Assembly (NCBI GenBank): GCA_900319795.1
Contig: ONPU01000011.1
Coordinates: 1-53,810 of the forward strand
Direction of reading: 5' to 3'
Source: an uncultured Eubacteriales bacterium
GTDB lineage: Bacteria; Bacillota; Clostridia; Lachnospirales; Lachnospiraceae
DNA: 53,810 bases
A program made the position numbers and the translations under genes. Positions 36,934-45,842 of the stretch are shown here, in pieces. Positions within the stretch are counted from its first letter, which is position 1. Each line of letters opens with the position of its first letter. The notes beneath the pieces are model-generated. The model had not been told where the DNA came from, did not search any database, and worked only from the letters and a program-made list of their open reading frames with translations.

Positions 36934-37650
36934 ATGAATATTCACGGATTACAGAAAATGACGCTCCTGGATTTTCCGGGCCATGTCGCCTGCACGGTCT
37001 TCCTTGCGGGCTGCGACCTGCGCTGCCCGTTCTGCCATAACTTCGATCTGGCTTGCGGAAAGTCGGACTTCGTCATGAGCGAAGAAGAACTGATGGATTT
37101 CCTTAAAAAACGGAAAGGGCTGCTCGAAGGCGTTGCCTTTACCGGCGGAGAGCCATGTCTCTATAAAGACCTCCCGGATCTCATCCGCCGGATCCGCGAT
37201 CTCGGATTCGCGGTCAAACTGGATACGAACGGCTGTCATCCCGCTCTCCTTTCGGACATCATCCGTGAAGGACTGATTGAGTACGCCGCTATGGACATCA
37301 AAAACTCTCCGGGCAAATATGCCCGGACCTCGGGCCTTCAGGAACTGGATCTTGCGCCGGTCATGGAAAGCATCTCCATCCTCAGGGAAAGCGGGATCGA
37401 CTATGAGTTTAGGACGACGGTTGTCCGGGAGTTTCATGAGGCGTCTGATTTCGAGGAAATCGGGGCGATGATCCGCGGGGCGAAACACTATTTTCTTCAG
37501 AGTTTTACCGACCGCGATACTGTTCCCTATGAAGGTTTTCACGCCCCCTCCACCGGGGAAATGCTTGAATTTGCGGGCATTGTAAGGCCATTTGTCGAAG
37601 AAGTCCGGCTCCGCGGCGTCGAAAATGTCCCGGATTCAGAGGCCTTCTAA
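36934..37650 (+). CDS. nrdG: Anaerobic ribonucleotide reductase activating protein (radical SAM)
   Basis: 238 residues. The radical-SAM cluster motif CDLRCPFC (CxxxCxxC) lies near residues 27-34, followed by GVAFTGGEPCLYKDLPDLIRRI (GGE SAM-binding motif) and DIKNSPGKYARTSG. It installs the glycyl radical on NrdD using S-adenosylmethionine and reduced flavodoxin or ferredoxin. This is the longer NrdG2-like type rather than the short E. coli form (about 154 residues). It lies upstream of nrdD on the same strand, with a separate nrdD promoter between them. Confidence 0.92.
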   Translation: MNIHGLQKMTLLDFPGHVACTVFLAGCDLRCPFCHNFDLACGKSDFVMSEEELMDFLKKRKGLLEGVAFTGGEPCLYKDLPDLIRRIRDLGFAVKLDTNGCHPALLSDIIREGLIEYAAMDIKNSPGKYARTSGLQELDLAPVMESISILRESGIDYEFRTTVVREFHEASDFEEIGAMIRGAKHYFLQSFTDRDTVPYEGFHAPSTGEMLEFAGIVRPFVEEVRLRGVENVPDSEAF

Positions 37651-37696
37651 GAGCTCATTTACATACAAGATCTTGTTCCCGAAAAAATACTCTCCA

Positions 37697-37799: not shown

Positions 37800-40337
37800 A
37801 TGTACCAGGTTGTAAAAAGAGACGGGAAGGTCGTGGATTTCGACATCAAGAAAATCAGCGACGCGATCACACAGGCCTTCGAAGCTCGCGGGAGACAGTA
37901 TCATCCGACCGTGATCGATATGATCTCTCTGCATGTCACCGCCGATTTCGACGAGAAGATCCACGGCGATAAAATTGCCGTCGAAGACATTCAGGACAGC
38001 GTGGAAAAGGTCCTGTCGGAATCCGGCTATTCGGATGTGGCGAAAGCTTACATTCTCTACCGCAGACAGCGGGAAAAAGTCCGCAATATCAATTCCGCTC
38101 TTCTCAATTACAAAGAGCTCGTCAATGACTATCTGAAGATCAACGACTGGCGCGTAAAGGAAAACTCCACGGTCACTTATTCCGTGGGCGGCCTTATTCT
38201 GTCCAATTCCGGCGCCATCACAGCCAATTACTGGCTGAGCGAAGTCTATGACGACGAAATCGCCAACGCCCACAGAAGCGCGTCCATCCATCTGCATGAC
38301 CTCTCCATGCTGACCGGATACTGCGCGGGCTGGAGCTTAAAGCAGCTGATCAAGGAAGGACTGGGCGGCGTTCCCGGCAAGATCACTTCCTCTCCTGCCA
38401 GCCATCTGTCTACCCTTTGCAACCAGATGGTCAATTTCCTCGGCATCATGCAGAACGAATGGGCCGGGGCACAGGCATTTTCCTCTTTCGATACCTATCT
38501 GGCACCATTTGTCAAAGTTGACAACCTCTCCCAGAAAGAAGTCAAGCAGTGCGTCCAGTCCTTTATCTACGGCGTCAACACACCGAGCCGCTGGGGCACA
38601 CAGGCACCGTTCTCCAACATCACTTTGGACTGGACGGTTCCGAACGATCTGAAGAACCTTCCGGCCATTGTCGGCGGCAAGGAGCTTGATTTCACATACG
38701 GTGACTGCCAGAAGGAAATGGATATGGTCAACAAGGCCTTCATCGAAATCATGATCGAAGGCGACGCCAACGGACGCGGATTCCAGTATCCGATCCCGAC
38801 CTACTCCATTACCCGTGATTTCAGCTGGGAAGAGACGGAAAACAACAAGCTTCTCTTTGAAATGACCGCCAAATACGGCACCCCCTATTTCTCGAATTAT
38901 ATCAACTCCGATATGGAACCGAGCGATGTCCGTTCCATGTGCTGCCGTCTGCGCCTCGACCTGCGCGAACTGCGGAAAAAGTCCGGCGGTTTCTTCGGAT
39001 CGGGAGAATCCACGGGATCGATCGGCGTTGTAACCATCAACATCCCGCGTATCGCTTACCTTGCTGCGGATGAAAATGATTTCTACACCCGTCTCGACAA
39101 ACTGATGGATATCGCGGCACGTTCTCTCCACGTAAAGAGAGGCGTCATTACAAAGCTTATGGACCAGGGTCTCTATCCTTATACAAAGCGCTATCTGGGC
39201 ACATTTGAGAACCATTTCTCCACAATCGGCCTTATCGGCATGAACGAAGCCTGTCTGAACGCGAACTGGATCGGCTGCGACCTCACGAACGAGAAGGCAC
39301 AGCGCTTCACCAGAGACGTCCTGAACCATATGCGTGAGCGCCTGTCCGACTATCAGGAAGAATACGGCGATCTCTACAATCTCGAAGCGACTCCGGCCGA
39401 ATCCACGACCTATCGTTTCGCGAAGCATGACAAGGAACAGTATCCGGATATCATCACCGCGAACATGAACGGAACCCCGTACTATACGAATTCCTCTCAT
39501 CTTCCGGTCGGATATACCGAAGACGTCTTCTCCGCTCTGGATATCCAGGACGATCTGCAGACGCTCTATACGTCCGGCACCGTCTTCCACGCCTTCCTCG
39601 GCGAGAAGCTTCCGGACTGGAAAGCTGCCGCGACACTTGTCCGCAAGATCGCGGAGAATTACAAGCTTCCGTACTATACGATGTCTCCGACTTATTCCGT
39701 CTGCCGTGATCACGGATATCTGACAGGCGAACAGACGGTCTGCCCGATCTGCGGCGCGAAGACCGAGGTCTACAGCAGAATCACCGGCTATTACCGTCCG
39801 GTTCAGAACTGGAATGACGGAAAGGCACAGGAATACAAGGACAGGAAAGTCTACAATATCGGACGTTCCCATCTGACTCATATCGGACCCAACCCGGCTC
39901 CTTCTGATGAGCCCGTGGCGAGACCTTCCTACACGAAGACCTCTCCGCTGCGCGTGGAAGCTCCTCAGAAGGCACCGGTACCGTTTGTCCAGACGGCTCA
40001 GGCCGCTCCGGCTCCGGTACAGGAAGCACAGAAGGAAGTTGAAGTCGCAAAGGCTCCCGAAGCGGAGGTCAAGCGCGGACCGCAGCCTGTAAAGGATGCA
40101 AGTGAGCTTTCGAACATTCTTCTGTTCAAGACACCGACCTGCCCGAACTGCAAAGCCGCTGCTGCTCTGCTGGATCGCGCCGGTATCTCCTACACAGCGC
40201 TCAATGCTGATGAGGAGAAGGATCTGGTTGGCAGATTCGGCGTCCGCCAGGCTCCGACACTCGTGGTCATCGGTGATGACGGATTTGAAAAATTCCGCGG
40301 CGTCTCCGATATCAAGGGATGGCTGATGAAAAGATAA
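37800..40337 (+). CDS. nrdD: Class III ribonucleoside-triphosphate reductase with fused C-terminal redoxin
   Basis: 845 residues. An N-terminal ATP-cone (about 1-95, MYQVVKRDGKVVDFDIKKI) regulates activity. The NrdD barrel spans about 100-680, with the MCCRLRLD cysteine pair, a zinc site built from Cys 635, 648 and 651 (CPICG) and the glycyl radical loop RITGYYRPVQNWNDGKA (Gly 663). A Pro/Ala/Glu-rich linker (about 690-765) leads to a glutaredoxin/thioredoxin-fold domain (about 770-845) with active site CPNC (Cys 781 and 784) and QAPTLVVIG. Ordinary NrdD ends after the glycyl loop. The fusion suggests disulfide-based reduction rather than formate. AAGGGGAGG precedes the ATG. The next gene is a thioredoxin-reductase-like flavoprotein. 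Confidence 0.95.
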   Translation: MYQVVKRDGKVVDFDIKKISDAITQAFEARGRQYHPTVIDMISLHVTADFDEKIHGDKIAVEDIQDSVEKVLSESGYSDVAKAYILYRRQREKVRNINSALLNYKELVNDYLKINDWRVKENSTVTYSVGGLILSNSGAITANYWLSEVYDDEIANAHRSASIHLHDLSMLTGYCAGWSLKQLIKEGLGGVPGKITSSPASHLSTLCNQMVNFLGIMQNEWAGAQAFSSFDTYLAPFVKVDNLSQKEVKQCVQSFIYGVNTPSRWGTQAPFSNITLDWTVPNDLKNLPAIVGGKELDFTYGDCQKEMDMVNKAFIEIMIEGDANGRGFQYPIPTYSITRDFSWEETENNKLLFEMTAKYGTPYFSNYINSDMEPSDVRSMCCRLRLDLRELRKKSGGFFGSGESTGSIGVVTINIPRIAYLAADENDFYTRLDKLMDIAARSLHVKRGVITKLMDQGLYPYTKRYLGTFENHFSTIGLIGMNEACLNANWIGCDLTNEKAQRFTRDVLNHMRERLSDYQEEYGDLYNLEATPAESTTYRFAKHDKEQYPDIITANMNGTPYYTNSSHLPVGYTEDVFSALDIQDDLQTLYTSGTVFHAFLGEKLPDWKAAATLVRKIAENYKLPYYTMSPTYSVCRDHGYLTGEQTVCPICGAKTEVYSRITGYYRPVQNWNDGKAQEYKDRKVYNIGRSHLTHIGPNPAPSDEPVARPSYTKTSPLRVEAPQKAPVPFVQTAQAAPAPVQEAQKEVEVAKAPEAEVKRGPQPVKDASELSNILLFKTPTCPNCKAAAALLDRAGISYTALNADEEKDLVGRFGVRQAPTLVVIGDDGFEKFRGVSDIKGWLMKR

Positions 40338-40363
40338 CAGTTCACGCGAAAGGATCCGACACT

Positions 40364-41275
40364 ATGTATGATGTAATCGTGGTCGGCGGGGGCCCTGCCG
40401 GCATGACTGCGGCGCTCTACGCCCAGCGCAACGGCAAACAGGCCCTTGTAATTGAAAAAAACGGATTCGGTGGCCAGATTACCCATTCCCCGAAGGTTGA
40501 GAATTATCCCGGCATCCTGACGATGAGCGGCAACGAATTCGCCGACAAAATGCTGGACCAGATCCTGAAACAGGGTGCCGAGATCGAATTTGAAAATGTC
40601 ACCTCCGTTGAGTCGGAGGAACACTGCAAAAAAGTATACACCGAGGAAGGCTCCGTATATGAAACGAAGACAGTGATCCTTGCTACCGGCGTCAAACACC
40701 GGATGCTCGGTCTTCCCGGTGAAAATGAACTGGTCGGCGAAGGCATCTCCTTCTGCGCGGTCTGTGACGGCGATTTTTATAAAGGGCTGACTGTCTGTGT
40801 GGCAGGCGGCGGCAATTCCGCCCTGCAGGAAGCGATCCTGCTCTCCGAAAAATGCAAAGAAGTAATCATGCTTCAGGACCTCCCGCGTTTTACCGGAGAA
40901 GAAAAGCTGCAGGAAGTGCTCTTCTCCCGTCCGAATGTCCGCAGCTACACCGGCGTCCGGATCGAAGAACTTCTGGCTGTTGACGGCGCGCTTCAGGGCG
41001 TACGGATCAGCGGAGAAAACGGCACTCAGGATATCAGCTGTGACGGGCTCTTCGTCGCGATCGGCCTCATTCCCGAAAATGACGCGTTTAGAGGCCTGGC
41101 TGAACTCAACGACTACGGATACTTCAACTCCGACGAGCAGTGTCTTACAAAGACACCCGGAATCTATGCCGCCGGAGACTGCAGAAGCAAAAACGTGCGT
41201 CAGCTGACTACCGCGGTCGCTGACGGAGCTCAGGCGGCTCTTGCGGCTTGCCGATATATCGACACCGCCTGCTGA
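40364..41275 (+). CDS. Thioredoxin-reductase-like flavoprotein (lacks NADPH HRRxxxR motif)
   Basis: 303 residues. FAD-binding GGGPAG near the start, redox-active FCAVCDGDFY (CxxC), second Rossmann GGGNSALQEA, and the C-terminal GIYAAGDCRSKNVRQLTTAVADG that is strongly conserved in TrxR. The usual NADPH 2'-phosphate motif HRRxxxR is replaced by LQDLPRFTG. The electron donor is therefore probably NADH, or reduced ferredoxin as in pyridine-nucleotide-independent enzymes. The gene begins 26 bases after nrdD with GAAAGGAT before the ATG at 40364; an in-frame start at 40319 overlaps nrdD and is less likely. It should reduce the redoxin domain fused to NrdD. Confidence 0.9.
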   Translation: MYDVIVVGGGPAGMTAALYAQRNGKQALVIEKNGFGGQITHSPKVENYPGILTMSGNEFADKMLDQILKQGAEIEFENVTSVESEEHCKKVYTEEGSVYETKTVILATGVKHRMLGLPGENELVGEGISFCAVCDGDFYKGLTVCVAGGGNSALQEAILLSEKCKEVIMLQDLPRFTGEEKLQEVLFSRPNVRSYTGVRIEELLAVDGALQGVRISGENGTQDISCDGLFVAIGLIPENDAFRGLAELNDYGYFNSDEQCLTKTPGIYAAGDCRSKNVRQLTTAVADGAQAALAACRYIDTAC

Positions 41276-42163: not shown

Positions 42164-42400
42164 CTATATTTCCAGTTCTCTTATATGCTGTGCCTTAATG
42201 CCGGAAGAACGAAGCAGTTCCCGGAGGCCTTCTTCGTCATCCGGAGGCGCGCTCCACGCAAGACCGCAGCCGGCGCTGATCTCCTTCGGCAGAGGAATCA
42301 GACGGCCTTCAACTCCGTTGTTTTGGCAGTAATCCTCAAACGCCATAGCGTCATGCGTTGAAAAAAAGGCGACGATCAGCCGCCTTATTTTCTTCCTCAT
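42164..42400 (-). CDS. DUF3343 protein (copy 1, beside YedF)
   Basis: 78 residues. It has the DUF3343 shape: [17 protein letters not shown] at the N-terminus, then [27 protein letters not shown] with the family's conserved Cys (about residue 45). DUF3343 genes are found beside YedF and cysteine-desulfurase-like genes; a carrier role for reactive sulfur or selenium is suggested but not proven. The ATG overlaps the yedF stop by 4 bases (CCATGA). A paralogue lies at 44225-44488. Confidence 0.8.
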
Positions 42401-43014
42401 GGCCTTATGACCATGGAAGCATTCATCTGTGCTTCCACAATATCATACATATTGGAGATAATCCCCACCTGAAGTTTTTCCTTCAGTCCGTAAAAATCCA
42501 GACAGGTTCCGCAGGTCATGATCTGAGCCCCTGCTTCCTCGAGAGCCTTCAGGTCTTTGATGGTATCCGGATCTTCCGTAGTAAGATACGCGCCCGAATT
42601 GTAGCAGATCACTTTCTCCGGAACCTCATCCTGATTCGTCAGAGCAAAGATAAAGGCCTTCATCAGTTTCTTTCCGAGCTGCTCGTCTCCGTTACCCATT
42701 GTGTTCGAAGAAATGATCACGACCTTTCCTCCTTTCGGAGAAATGGTACAGCTGACCGCTTCCGCGGGAACCTCGGCATCTTTCGCGGCTCCGGCTTTGA
42801 CCTGCATTTTCACGGTATATTCCTTTTCCCCGTTCTGTTCGGAGGTGACAGTAAATCCGTTGTGCTCGCCAAGGCGGGTCAGGTTCTGCACTGCCGTATC
42901 ATTGTCGACTTTCACATACAGAATTCCGTCTTCAATAAACTCTTCGATTGCTTTCTTCGCGTTGATCACGGGAAGCGGACACGCCATTCCCATGCAGTCA
43001 ATTCTTCTTTCCAT
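42397..43014 (-). CDS. yedF: YedF family selenium/sulfur-transfer protein
   Basis: 205 residues. The N-terminal TusA-like domain (about 1-75) carries CMGMACPLPVINAKKAIEEF (CPxP motif). The C-terminal DsrE-like domain (about 95-205) has VVIISSNTMGNGDEQLGKKLMKAFIFAL and a Cys-containing loop AQIMTCGTCLDFYGL. This matches the selenium-metabolism YedF described with selenium-dependent molybdenum hydroxylases. It is fused in operon with DUF3343 downstream and the desulfurase-like gene upstream. Direct selenium use is inferred. Confidence 0.88.
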   Translation of the reverse strand: MERRIDCMGMACPLPVINAKKAIEEFIEDGILYVKVDNDTAVQNLTRLGEHNGFTVTSEQNGEKEYTVKMQVKAGAAKDAEVPAEAVSCTISPKGGKVVIISSNTMGNGDEQLGKKLMKAFIFALTNQDEVPEKVICYNSGAYLTTEDPDTIKDLKALEEAGAQIMTCGTCLDFYGLKEKLQVGIISNMYDIVEAQMNASMVIRP

Positions 43015-43060
43015 ATTGTTCTCCGTTCCTTCCGCAGTCTGTATCTGCGAAATAAATCAT

Positions 43061-44212
43061 TTATTCTAAATTTACCATTCCGGCAATTTCCCGGACGGCT
43101 TCCGCCGCTTTATCAGCATCGTCAACAGTATTGAAATAGCCGAAGCTGAAACGCACGGCTCCCTGACTGTCGGTGCCCAGCGCCTCGTGCATCAAAGGAG
43201 CGCAGTGCGCTCCGGATCTTACCGCGATCTCATACGTCATGGCCAGTTCATCCGAGACCAGAGCCGAATCCAGATCAGCAATATTCAGCGTGACGATCGG
43301 ACACCTGTCCGGAGCTGAAAAATCACCGTACACTATAACATTCGGAATTGCGGATACCGCTTTATAGAAGCGCCGGGCCAGCTCCGTTTCATGGGCATGA
43401 ATCGTATCGATGCCGCAGCTCAGGATATAATCCACGGCCGCGGAAAGGCCCGCGATCCCATGGCCGTTCAGCGTACCGGCTTCCAGTCTGGTCGGATATT
43501 CCGGCGGCTGTTCGGTCATAAATGATTGTACACCCGTCCCTCCGACTTTAAAAGGAGCAACTTCGATATCCCCGTTGATGCACAGCCCGCCCGTACCCTG
43601 AGGTCCCATCATGGACTTATGCCCTGTGAAACACAGGATGGAAATACCGGATTCCACCATGTCAATGGGGACTGTCCCCGCTGTCTGGGACGCGTCCACG
43701 ATCAAAAGCAGGCCATGTTCTTTCGCAATAGCGCCGATCCGGGAAAGATCCAGCATATTGCCTGTCAGGTTGGATGCGTGTGTACAGACAATGGCTTTTG
43801 TGTTCGGCTGAATCAGGCGTTCAAAGTCCGCGTAATCGACTGTGCCCCGGGCATCCGCCTGAACGAAGGAAAGCTCAGTTCCTCTCTCCGCGCGCAGCCT
43901 GTATAGAGGGCGCAGAACCGAATTATGTTCAAGCACGGTCGTAATGACATGGTCTCCTGCGCCTATGGTTCCGCTGATCGCGATGTTCAGGGCTTCCGTG
44001 GAATTATTTGTAAAAATGACCTGCTCCGATTTCGGGCATCCGAAAAATAAGGCCAGCTTCTGCCTTGTTTTGTAAATGAGGCGATTGGACTTCAAAGCTC
44101 CCTCGTGGGCCCCTCTGGAAGCATTTCCCAAAGAAGTCAGGGCATTCGTAACGGCACTCACAACCTCCGGAGGTTTGACCATGGTTGTAGCGGCATTATC
44201 AAGATAGATCAC
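43061..44212 (-). CDS. Cysteine desulfurase-family aminotransferase (class V)
   Basis: 383 residues, PLP enzyme of the family including EF2568-type proteins that co-occur with YedF. It starts at a GTG with GGAGGA 5-6 bases upstream (IYLDNAATTMVKPPEV). LVDASQTAGTVPIDM binds PLP, and SILCFTGHKSMMGPQGTGGLCI has the Schiff-base Lys (about residue 195). RSGAHCAPLMHEAL holds the mobile Cys-loop. It mobilises sulfur or selenium from cysteine or selenocysteine as a bound persulfide or selenide. It is flanked by DUF3343 and yedF in the same operon. Confidence 0.9.
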   Translation of the reverse strand: MIYLDNAATTMVKPPEVVSAVTNALTSLGNASRGAHEGALKSNRLIYKTRQKLALFFGCPKSEQVIFTNNSTEALNIAISGTIGAGDHVITTVLEHNSVLRPLYRLRAERGTELSFVQADARGTVDYADFERLIQPNTKAIVCTHASNLTGNMLDLSRIGAIAKEHGLLLIVDASQTAGTVPIDMVESGISILCFTGHKSMMGPQGTGGLCINGDIEVAPFKVGGTGVQSFMTEQPPEYPTRLEAGTLNGHGIAGLSAAVDYILSCGIDTIHAHETELARRFYKAVSAIPNVIVYGDFSAPDRCPIVTLNIADLDSALVSDELAMTYEIAVRSGAHCAPLMHEALGTDSQGAVRFSFGYFNTVDDADKAAEAVREIAGMVNLE

Positions 44213-44224
44213 AGTGTTCCTCCC

Positions 44225-44488
44225 TCAGCAATACTGGTCGCGCCTGGGCTGCAGCGGATTCTCCATGGATACGATGCTGTGATATACGGCATGTTCGCTT
44301 TGGATCACTTCCTTTGCCCGCTCGATCATATCCGGCGCGACAAGAAGCGACATACCGCAGCAGAGCGTTCCGCGGGCAGCGGCAGGAGCCGGTGCGATGC
44401 GGTTCATCACGCCGGCTCCGTCCAGCAGGTCATGGAGCATGAGCCCCTGCTCATAATTTTCAAACAGGATGTAATAGCGGGTGTTCAT
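44225..44488 (-). CDS. DUF3343 protein (copy 2, beside the reductase gene)
   Basis: 87 residues. YYILFENYEQGLMLHDLLDG then a loop ending GTLCCGMSLLVAP, with adjacent Cys residues at the place of the DUF3343 conserved Cys. The ATG overlaps the stop of the reductase gene by 4 bases, and the desulfurase-like gene starts 12 bases later, so it physically and translationally links the two. It differs from copy 1 in length and in the Cys pair. Confidence 0.72.
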   Translation of the reverse strand: MNTRYYILFENYEQGLMLHDLLDGAGVMNRIAPAPAAARGTLCCGMSLLVAPDMIERAKEVIQSEHAVYHSIVSMENPLQPRRDQYC

Positions 44489-45759
44489 CCGTTCAGCATT
44501 TCCACAAATGCTTCGATCCGGGTTCTCAACTGGCCCGCATCGGAATCTTCATAGTCTGTCTCAAGTGAAAGGACCGGGATGCCTTCCTTCTTCAGAGCTT
44601 CCGCTACACTCTTCTTCTCAATGTCATAGAGACCGCAGAATTTCAGACTGCAGTCAATCACGCCGTCCGCTTTGTATTCCTTCGCGAGGCGGATAATATC
44701 CTCAATACGGCCGGGATTCGGTGTGAAGCAGGCGCAGTTGTTCTTCATATAGCGCTCGGACAAAGCCATATAGAGATCATCAAGCGTCTCGCCGCTTTCG
44801 TCCACAAGGTTCTCGAAATAGCGTGTGCCGGTGCACATTTCTTCACAGACAACCGCGGCACCGCTTGTTTCGATGATATTGTGAAGCTTCCAGTTCGGAA
44901 CAGCCAGAGGAGTTCCGGTAAGAAGGATTCTCTTCGTTCCAGCGGGAACCACACTCACGCCGTCTTTAATCCTCTGCTCCAGTTCATCCGCAAGGCGGTT
45001 GCACATCTGGGCGCAGCGTTCGGGATCGTCAAAGAAGGAAATCTGTGTCATGAGAAGTGCGTCACGTCCGGAAATCGGAAGACATTCGCTCTTTCTGGCC
45101 TCATAGACCCTCTTCATGGCCTTTCTCTTCTCATTGACAATGCGGATCGCCTCTTTCAGTTTCTCAACACTCACTTTATTGCCGGTGATCTCCTCCACCT
45201 TCTGGGCAAAGTCCGCGATTTCTTCCTTCCATTTCACAATATCCTTCGGACGTTTCATCTGAGGTACGTCCATGATGTACATTGGCACATCCTGTCCGAG
45301 GATCTCATATGCTTTCTTCTTTCCGTCGCAGGTCGTCTCACCGACGTATACATCGGCAATTCTGAAGAACGGACATGTCCTGCCGAGGCGGGCGCCTACA
45401 GACGCTTTAATCAGCGGGCAGGTATTTTTCGGAAGAACAGCCTCTCCGCCGGGAACCCAGAACTGGGAACCGCCGCAAAGCCCCGTCACGATACCGTTGG
45501 CCGCGATGATCACTTCGTCGGGCACAAACACGCAGAAGGTTCCGAACACTTTCCGACCCTTCTTCTGTTCCTCGATCAGTTCCGCCGGACGAATCCCATG
45601 TACCTCCGAAATCACCAGATCCCAGAAATCCATAGCCTTCGGGCGGTTTTCCTGTGTCATGAACACGTCTCCCACCGCCACGGGCAGAACCTGACAGAGC
45701 ATATCGTGGCTCTCCAGATCCATTCCGAGGTTTTCCCACATTTTTACATAGTCTGCCAT
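44485..45759 (-). CDS. Double-cubane-type 2-hydroxyacyl-CoA dehydratase-family reductase (HgdB-like)
   Basis: 424 residues from ATG 45759 (AAAGGAGG upstream). It belongs to the HgdB/BcrB/DUF2284-like family: N-terminal substrate half with LPVAVGDVFMTQENRPKAMDFWDLVI, CGGSQFWVPGGEAVLPKNTCPLIKASVGA with cluster Cys, and the later CSLKFCGLYDIEKKSVAEALKKEGIPVLSLETDYED. Such proteins hold an unusual double [4Fe-4S] cluster and reduce small molecules with ATP-activated electrons. No second dehydratase subunit lies here, which fits the one-subunit 'double-cubane' group rather than a true acyl-CoA dehydratase. Substrate unknown. Confidence 0.83.
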   Translation of the reverse strand: MADYVKMWENLGMDLESHDMLCQVLPVAVGDVFMTQENRPKAMDFWDLVISEVHGIRPAELIEEQKKGRKVFGTFCVFVPDEVIIAANGIVTGLCGGSQFWVPGGEAVLPKNTCPLIKASVGARLGRTCPFFRIADVYVGETTCDGKKKAYEILGQDVPMYIMDVPQMKRPKDIVKWKEEIADFAQKVEEITGNKVSVEKLKEAIRIVNEKRKAMKRVYEARKSECLPISGRDALLMTQISFFDDPERCAQMCNRLADELEQRIKDGVSVVPAGTKRILLTGTPLAVPNWKLHNIIETSGAAVVCEEMCTGTRYFENLVDESGETLDDLYMALSERYMKNNCACFTPNPGRIEDIIRLAKEYKADGVIDCSLKFCGLYDIEKKSVAEALKKEGIPVLSLETDYEDSDAGQLRTRIEAFVEMLNG

Positions 45760-45842
45760 TTCCTTTTTTCCTCCTTTATCAACGACAGTCCGCATGCAAC
45801 GAACTGTGTCAGATACATGCTCCAAAACCCGTTTACGCCATT

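Follow-up and report, generated by a model that had tools for sequence, protein, structure and literature searches.

Architecture of the NrdD-Redoxin Gene

What supplies electrons to a class III ribonucleotide reductase (RNR) that has a redoxin joined to its own polypeptide, and does formate still have a part in its turnover? These questions are raised by a gene on contig ONPU01000011.1 of assembly GCA_900319795.1, a 2.0-Mb draft metagenome-assembled genome (MAG; 82% complete) of an uncultured member of the Lachnospiraceae, of which we analyzed positions 1 to 53,810 of the forward strand (the window). The nrdD gene of the window encodes a class III RNR with an MCCR motif and a glutamate in its active site (MCCR + Glu), followed in the same reading frame by a small redoxin domain. 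An earlier sequence-only reading of the window had proposed that this redoxin acts instead of formate and is itself reduced by the product of the next gene, a thioredoxin-reductase-like flavoprotein (TrxR). We consider it likely that the enzyme carries its own disulfide reductant, redoxin-driven turnover being the best reading of the locus. The activase NrdG2 would put the glycyl radical on Gly663, each turnover would oxidize Cys175 together with Cys381 or Cys382 of the finger loop, the tethered redoxin would reduce the resulting disulfide through its CPNC motif, either in cis or across the dimer, and the adjoining flavoprotein (CAVC, FAD) would re-reduce the redoxin with a donor that is probably NADH rather than NADPH. 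The architecture, its conservation, the constrained catalytic residues and, within this class, the gene linkage are direct observations; we infer these electron-transfer steps and the donor, and also that redoxin rather than formate supports most turnover.

The fusion is one uninterrupted frame on the forward strand (37800..40337), from an ATG at 37800 to a stop codon ending at 40337 with no internal stop. Its 845-residue product matches NF006126 with 1153.5 bits and scores over the cut-off of TIGR02487, which places it among the class III RNRs (NrdD). Three Pfam domains follow one another and bear out the NrdD-redoxin fusion of the sequence-only reading: an ATP-cone (residues 3–92, 37806..38075; PF03477, E = 2.7e-22), the NRDD catalytic core including the glycyl-radical domain (residues 121–685, 38160..39854; PF13597, E = 8.8e-194) and, beyond a Pro/Ala/Glu linker of 81 residues by hidden Markov model boundaries (39864..40106), an NrdH/glutaredoxin-like domain (residues 770–845, 40107..40334) in which the Pfam Glutaredoxin match (PF00462) covers residues 773–823 (E = 1.6e-7; 31.8 bits against a cut-off of 22.9). 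The redox motif CPNC occupies residues 781–784 (40140..40151), and Pro819 (40254..40256) stands where, by sequence, the cis-proline is expected. The sequence-only reading had the layout right in its coordinates, its redox cysteines (Cys 781/784), its linker of about 80 residues, its upstream activase and its spacing of 26 bases to the reductase gene.

Occurrence and Conservation of the Fusion

Among the best 80 loci from a scan of GTDB genome contigs, ranked best-first and drawn from MAGs and isolates that are mostly labelled Clostridia-group, many of them from rumen or gut, 79 contain the fusion in a single frame and the remaining locus (L065) ends at a contig edge. An even sample of 291 genomes of the window's class yielded a full-length relative at no less than 70% identity in 46, with frames of fused length (788–922 residues) in 42 and of 702–717 residues in four; six genomes with partial matches only (G049, G128, G139, G186, G200, and G256) were excluded from the 46. 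Frames of the next group, at 47–54% identity (hereafter the sister group), are mostly near 700 residues, and the 13 that we fetched have no redoxin domain by profile. With profiles built for this analysis, 112 of 130 distinct cellular loci, counting that of the window, proved to have the redoxin, which is no unbiased rate, as the loci are mostly best matches plus some picked for contrast; the 18 loci without it are the 13 of the sister group and three near relatives, all chosen as contrast, a further near relative from the class sample (L107) and the truncated L065. Outside the class, a sample of 299 genomes of the phylum contained nine with fused-length frames (784–818 residues) and one with a frame of 719 residues; the redoxin was detected by profile in all eight of the nine that were fetched, and the 719-residue protein is without it. 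One long frame of 988 residues (G550) was rejected as a fusion, being an unfused NrdD of 737 residues when read from the first listed start codon.

The same one-frame fusion is found in the single-contig genome G090 and in AP018533.1 (L030), whose record title reads complete genome. Because it is open in one frame in many independent assemblies, these two included, we can dismiss with near certainty an assembly or frameshift artefact, which the sequence-only reading had named as one of the findings that would undo its proposal; the comparison of NrdD domain architectures that it had called for shows instead a fusion that recurs across cellular loci. In a first tree, the four near cellular unfused NrdDs formed one group (support 0.909) and the 13 sister sequences were non-monophyletic under the rooting used. 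A larger tree placed all 138 fused tips in one clade of 147 tips (support 1.0) together with nine unfused tips, one of them truncated; the five cellular unfused tips of this clade, among them the truncated one, fell into two groups, and several deep branches were poorly supported. The simplest reading of these trees would be a single origin of the fusion with some losses, deep support being low.

The residues on which redoxin-driven turnover would depend are conserved throughout this family. Cys175 (38322..38324) aligns, in an alignment to 4coi, with the cysteine of the YC pair of Thermotoga maritima NrdD, which is Cys125 of that protein (PMC4493059; papers given here by PMC number are cited for excerpts), and is invariant (81/81), as are the finger-loop motif M380-C381-C382-R383 (38937..38948; motif meaning from PMC9669993 and PMC4493059) and the three zinc-site cysteines that were identified, C635, C648, and C651. 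Glu529 (39384..39386), which aligns with T. maritima Glu495, is Glu in 112/112 fused, 4/4 near unfused and 13/13 sister sequences. Gly663 (39786..39788), the glycyl-radical residue of RITGYYRP as assigned by homology, is likewise invariant in the set of 81 and is present in 111 of 112 fused sequences, the other having a gap there. In the Neisseria bacilliformis enzyme, as retold in part of PMC9669993, a disulfide between a finger-loop cysteine and the cysteine of strand beta-A is reduced by thioredoxin. These cysteines and the Glu are present and invariant in the window's clade, which supports redoxin-driven turnover. The two enzymes have the finger-loop cysteine in common and redoxin-driven turnover, proposed for the window, but differ in that the Neisseria enzyme has SCCR without Met and a separate thioredoxin, whereas that of the window has MCCR and a tethered redoxin.

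Two further features of these sequences were observed. Residue 303 of the window NrdD is a Cys in 112/112 fused and 4/4 near unfused sequences and a Phe in 13/13 sister genes. In the sister NrdDs G430 (L178), G346 (L179), G354, G511, G534, G463, and G487 the match is split within one long frame, mostly near query residue 380 (MCCR); in L178 and L179 an intein-like insert of about 395 residues lies at the active site.

Redoxin Domain and Linker

From its sequence and its predicted structure, the C-terminal domain appears to be an NrdH/glutaredoxin-like redoxin, with a thioredoxin fold, CPxC and a proline at the expected cis-Pro position. Its best PDB sequence matches are NrdH (1r7h) and glutaredoxin (Grx; 2klx), and in an AlphaFold2 (AF2) model it is predicted as beta-alpha-beta-alpha-beta-beta-alpha with a per-residue confidence (pLDDT) of about 87–95; its scores lie below the curated NCBIfam cut-offs for both NrdH and Grx. 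Good prediction in the model is limited to the redoxin domain, the ATP-cone and some stretches of the core, the linker being below 50 pLDDT at residues 704–769, and a Foldseek search with the model returned mainly class III RNRs. Linker length ranges from 11 to 102 residues (median 29) among the 112 fused loci. The redox motif is CPNC in 76, CPKC in three and CPRC in one of 80 domain-bearing sequences, and the only positions invariant in 40 aligned redoxin domains are C781, P782, C784, P819, and T820, that is, the redox pair, the expected cis-Pro and their neighbours, which indicates that the domain is under selection. Our own Nei-Gojobori count on 871 pairs with cores at least 88% identical gave a median dN/dS of 0.07 (core, 449 pairs), 0.37 (redoxin, 405 pairs) and 0.87 (linker, 409 pairs). 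About half were dropped from these medians for saturation at silent sites, and the pairs are non-independent. The redoxin is thus constrained, yet far less than the core.

It is conceivable, but in our view very unlikely, that the redoxin rides along passively or acts on other targets, with NrdD as a mere carrier. The fast evolution of its sequence would fit such a role, as would the fact that it is the only match over the Pfam cut-offs to PF00462 and to PF00085 in the window's own MAG. However, a further thioredoxin match outside NrdD is found in 39 of 40 fused genomes, leading us to reject the idea of an only redoxin in the cell and to attribute its apparent solitude most likely to the incompleteness of this MAG. 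The invariance of CPxC and Pro819 in the 40 proteins, a dN/dS below that of the linker and the placement of the domain beside the core in phage forms (described below) also argue against a passenger.

Neighbouring Genes

The activase gene nrdG2 (36934..37650, forward strand; 238 residues, with the radical-SAM motif CxxxCxxC; TIGR02495 NrdG2, E = 2.9e-64, over cut-off) lies upstream of the fusion gene. An nrdG was found upstream on the same strand, within 1.5 kb, at 90 of the 112 fused loci and was not found there at 22; among the 18 unfused loci it lies downstream in 13 and upstream in four. A 14-mer resembling an NrdR box (37663..37676, forward strand) precedes nrdD, with 12 of 14 positions matching the consensus. 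Such 14-mers, with at least 12/14 matches, occur upstream at 72 of 110 fused loci vs. 0 of 110 shuffled sequences, an enrichment from which we judge the fusion operon to be probably under NrdR control.

The TrxR gene (40364..41275, forward strand; 303 residues) has its ATG at 40364, 26 bases after the stop codon of the fusion. Its product scores 301.7 bits with TIGR01292 (TRX_reduct), below the cut-off of 343.45, and its top PDB match is 7jyp. The FAD site, the GGGxSA motif and the CxxC of an NADPH thioredoxin reductase are all present, the last as CAVC (C131/C134, 40754..40765; both Cys in 62/62), whereas the NADPH motif HRRxxxR (PMC6262447) is absent, its HRR being replaced by QDL (40874..40882). 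Linkage was scored on the same strand at the 108 fused loci with at least 1 kb of downstream sequence and at 17 unfused loci: a TrxR follows within 250 bp at 73 and within 3 kb at 83 of the fused loci, and at none of the unfused ones (Fisher p = 6e-10 for the 3-kb counts, a value that overstates independence because the loci are related). HRR is kept in 14 of these 83 linked TrxRs and replaced by QNL, QDL or similar in 64; the 19 TrxRs other than these 64, all HRR ones included, form a group of their own (support 0.98). An enzyme of Thermoplasma without HRRxxxR is active with NADH and not with NADPH, and one of Methanocaldococcus, also without it, uses F420 (both in excerpts of PMC6262447); given these two outcomes, NADH is only a prediction for the window TrxR.

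The operon TrxR is the sole TIGR01292 match of 200 bits or more in eight of 17 operon-bearing fused genomes (24 fused genomes surveyed). This count, together with the other thioredoxins found in nearly all fused genomes, suggests that it is probably not dedicated to NrdD and that in several species it probably also acts as a general reductase or serves other redoxins.

Further downstream, on the reverse strand (42397-45825), genes for TusA/DsrE-like, class-V aminotransferase and 2-hydroxyglutaryl-CoA-dehydratase D-like proteins lie close together, an arrangement that recalls a sulfur/selenium handling cluster.

Phage Forms

A scan of viral contigs found 35 relatives, and profiles placed the redoxin in one frame with the NrdD core in 23 of them, some of which look like repeats (L140/L161, L141/L142, and L168/L169) and one of which (L143) has only the last part of the core. 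Some of the viral contigs may be host DNA. Among 20 chosen flank proteins, phage neighbours were a terminase large subunit by L158, a primase and an exonuclease by L141, an RNA ligase by L154, an exonuclease by L149 and a phage-type NrdG by L147; the flanks of the 35 viral loci, covering up to 3 kb, yielded no TrxR. At L155 the redoxin and NrdD are encoded by two separate genes, the unfused nrdD beginning within the stop codon of the CPNC redoxin gene ahead of it (overlap ATGA). That the redoxin accompanies nrdD into phage contigs, and that L155 pairs the two genes, we count in favor of redoxin-driven turnover. A possible cellular two-gene form (L119), in which a small redoxin gene precedes an unfused nrdD at a distance of about 220 nt, was set aside as weak because a terminator-like hairpin and a T-run, seen by eye, separate the genes, which leaves the phage L155 as the better case. 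We also rejected MT835493.1, a record under a phage name, as phage evidence: it contains a full nrdG/nrdD-redoxin/trxR operon, and the record, flagged UNVERIFIED, probably represents bacterial DNA or the border of a prophage.

Five phage forms (L147–L150 and L153) have no ATP-cone and a linker of only −1 to 8 residues, and in L153 the first redoxin Cys comes 36 residues after the radical Gly, as counted on the sequence. The long linker of the window is therefore no requirement, and the redoxin, if working, could work beside the glycyl-radical domain. This placement directly after the zinc and glycyl-radical domain would also suit a redoxin that mainly keeps the zinc-site or active-site thiols of NrdD reduced so that NrdG can activate the enzyme or so that it can be repaired after oxidation, with turnover running on formate, and a role of thioredoxin in activating the Escherichia coli class III enzyme has been described (PMC4390871, in part). 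We regard such a restricted role as unlikely, since it fails to explain why the fusion partner of the redoxin should be a core that has both the third Cys and the Glu, residues linked to redoxin-dependent turnover.

The NrdD-redoxin gene of L143 is interrupted by five in-frame stop codons, every one a TAG, and its viral contig (134,923 bases) is probably that of a phage in which TAG is recoded. The NrdD-redoxin frames of L164, L168, and L169 are 1384–1651 residues long with the core broken into at least three pieces, a pattern that several inteins within one fused phage gene would produce.

Redoxin or Formate

By its motifs the window NrdD would be assigned to NrdDh4, having GGFFG and MCCR with a Phe in the finger loop, the latter being the NrdDh4 signature (section 11 of PMC4493059), and equally to NrdD2, having a third active-site Cys (C381/C382) plus Glu529, the combination that defines this type in the scheme of Wei as retold in PMC4493059. 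The sequence-only reading was correct that some class III subclasses use a redoxin and not formate, namely thioredoxin in NrdD2 or the glutaredoxin-like NrdH in NrdD3 (Table 1 of PMC9176816). In the relevant part of PMC9669993, a Met precedes the double cysteine in 83% of double-cysteine class III sequences and such enzymes appear to suit formate or thioredoxin, whereas a Glu without the Met marks enzymes that likely use thioredoxin only. The latter pattern is not that of the window's family, in which M380 before the cysteine pair is invariant (81/81), and neither is the NrdD3 pattern of QCCR/A with no Met and no Glu, the window having both. The MCCR + Glu type is therefore ambiguous, and a preference for redoxin over formate is unreadable from the active site; the new evidence is the attached redoxin.

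Several observations weigh against redoxin-driven turnover. The MCCR + Glu core, by its residues, could use formate, and pyruvate formate-lyase (PFL; TIGR01255 over cut-off) was found in 18 of 40 genomes with a fused-length NrdD, in 17 of 36 from the unfused sister group and in one of four near unfused genomes (80 genomes in all, nine of an initial 89 being left out; G058 and G158 were counted as fused by frame length alone). Four near cellular genomes within the clade keep the same active site without the fusion, and the phage nrdDs L152 and L156 are unfused, with no redoxin match in their flanks, suggesting that the tether is dispensable in some lineages. No TrxR lies within 3 kb at 25 of the 108 fused loci, 16 of which have at least 4 kb of sequence, or at any of seven fused loci of other classes with about 1 kb or more downstream (L171–L176 and L182), so that the TrxR linkage may belong to the window's class and not to the fusion everywhere. 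The Butyrivibrio loci L022 and L024 carry the fusion with no TrxR in the sequence available for them. The redoxin also evolves faster than the core, its dN/dS being about five times higher, and the AF2 core (mean pLDDT 65.7; residues 366–406 below 50) is too poor to measure whether CPNC can reach the active site.

Since fused and unfused genomes have PFL equally often, the presence of the fusion does not go along with a loss of formate production, and we rejected as a general rule the explanation that it replaces formate where PFL is missing. The claim of redoxin instead of formate thus gains from the attached redoxin, and its exclusion of formate falls with the MCCR + Glu type and the PFL counts. 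It is quite possible, if somewhat short of probable, that the enzyme has two fuels, taking formate by way of Met380 when it is available and electrons from the tethered redoxin otherwise, a proposal that overlaps with redoxin-driven turnover. Excerpts of PMC9669993 describe MCCR + Glu enzymes as equipped for both reductants, and the invariance of Met380 and the presence of PFL in 18 fused-length genomes would fit; against this, the other 22 of the 40, the window's own 82%-complete MAG among them, have no PFL over cut-off, though formate has other sources, and these residues are shared by the unfused sister group, the dual equipment thus not being specific to the fusion.

Redoxin-driven turnover remains the reading that we favor, with narrower claims for its wiring. 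In the self-contained path of the sequence-only reading, from reductase to tethered redoxin to NrdD, gene order and a linked reductase are borne out, and the electron transfer along it is proposed; to call the path dedicated goes too far, given a TrxR that is the sole one in eight of 17 genomes, other thioredoxins in 39 of 40 and the loci without a TrxR. Only tentatively, and with doubts enough to put it below even odds, do we extend the reading to its full form, in which MCCR + Glu enzymes of this clade would run on redoxin with the reductant built into the enzyme, a folded equivalent of the C-terminal dithiol tail in class I RNRs, electrons would come from NADH through a TrxR without the NADPH motif, and a compact, linker-free phage version would need only a host reductase.

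Relation to Known Systems and Significance

The window enzyme shares MCCR, the finger-loop Phe, the Glu at the T. maritima Glu495 position, the ATP-cone and NrdG2 with NrdD2/NrdDh4 enzymes, and differs from them by its C-terminal redoxin, which the mostly ~700-residue relatives at 47–54% identity do not have (13 fetched). The sequence-only reading had drawn a parallel to Methanosarcina, which is apt in that both would belong to a redoxin-using branch and fails at the subtype. Methanosarcina barkeri NrdD is presumably an NrdD3, with QCCR/A and neither Met nor Glu, and the NrdD3 system has a separate redoxin and a ferredoxin-linked reductase. An NrdH-like redoxin, as found here, is the reductant of NrdD3 (Table 1 of PMC9176816), but NrdD3 has QCCR/A without Glu (part of PMC9669993) where the window has MCCR + Glu. 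In class I RNRs a C-terminal double-cysteine tail offers an analogy only, a C-terminal dithiol for re-reducing the active site that is there a flexible peptide and here a folded redoxin.

Fusions of Grx to RNR components are known already. Those covered in the excerpt of Rozman Grinberg 2018 (PMC6187632) occur in all RNR components and include a Grx fused to class I NrdB that is an efficient reductant. The Grx-ATP-cone-NrdB of Facklamia ignava, in which the fused Grx was shown to reduce its own RNR, differs from the window in being a class I fusion, with an N-terminal Grx on the radical subunit and glutathione as the driving reductant. One grx::nrdD, from Lachnospiraceae bacterium TWA4, is named in the same source; a glutaredoxin domain fused to NrdD in the Lachnospiraceae is common to both, possibly as members of the same family. 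The TWA4 fusion is a single entry in a list there, given with no domain order, operon or TrxR. What is described here is a widespread variant of the kind of which that listing gave one case in 2018. We found no account of a conserved nrdD-redoxin family, of its TrxR operon or of its phage forms in an open-access library that lacks most subscription papers, nor in excerpts of PMC9669993, PMC9531940, and PMC3653736.

The real reductant of the Met-bearing double-cysteine class III RNRs (the 83% noted above) is unreadable from the active site, and an enzyme that carries its reductant lends itself directly to experiment, with all parts encoded by two adjacent genes and the possible position of the redoxin restricted by the linker-free phage forms. 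If the donor is NADH, many gut bacteria would take the electrons for anaerobic synthesis of DNA precursors from their NADH pool and not from NADPH or formate. That gut bacteria and phages share the fusion offers a direct route to asking what powers a large group of class III RNRs.

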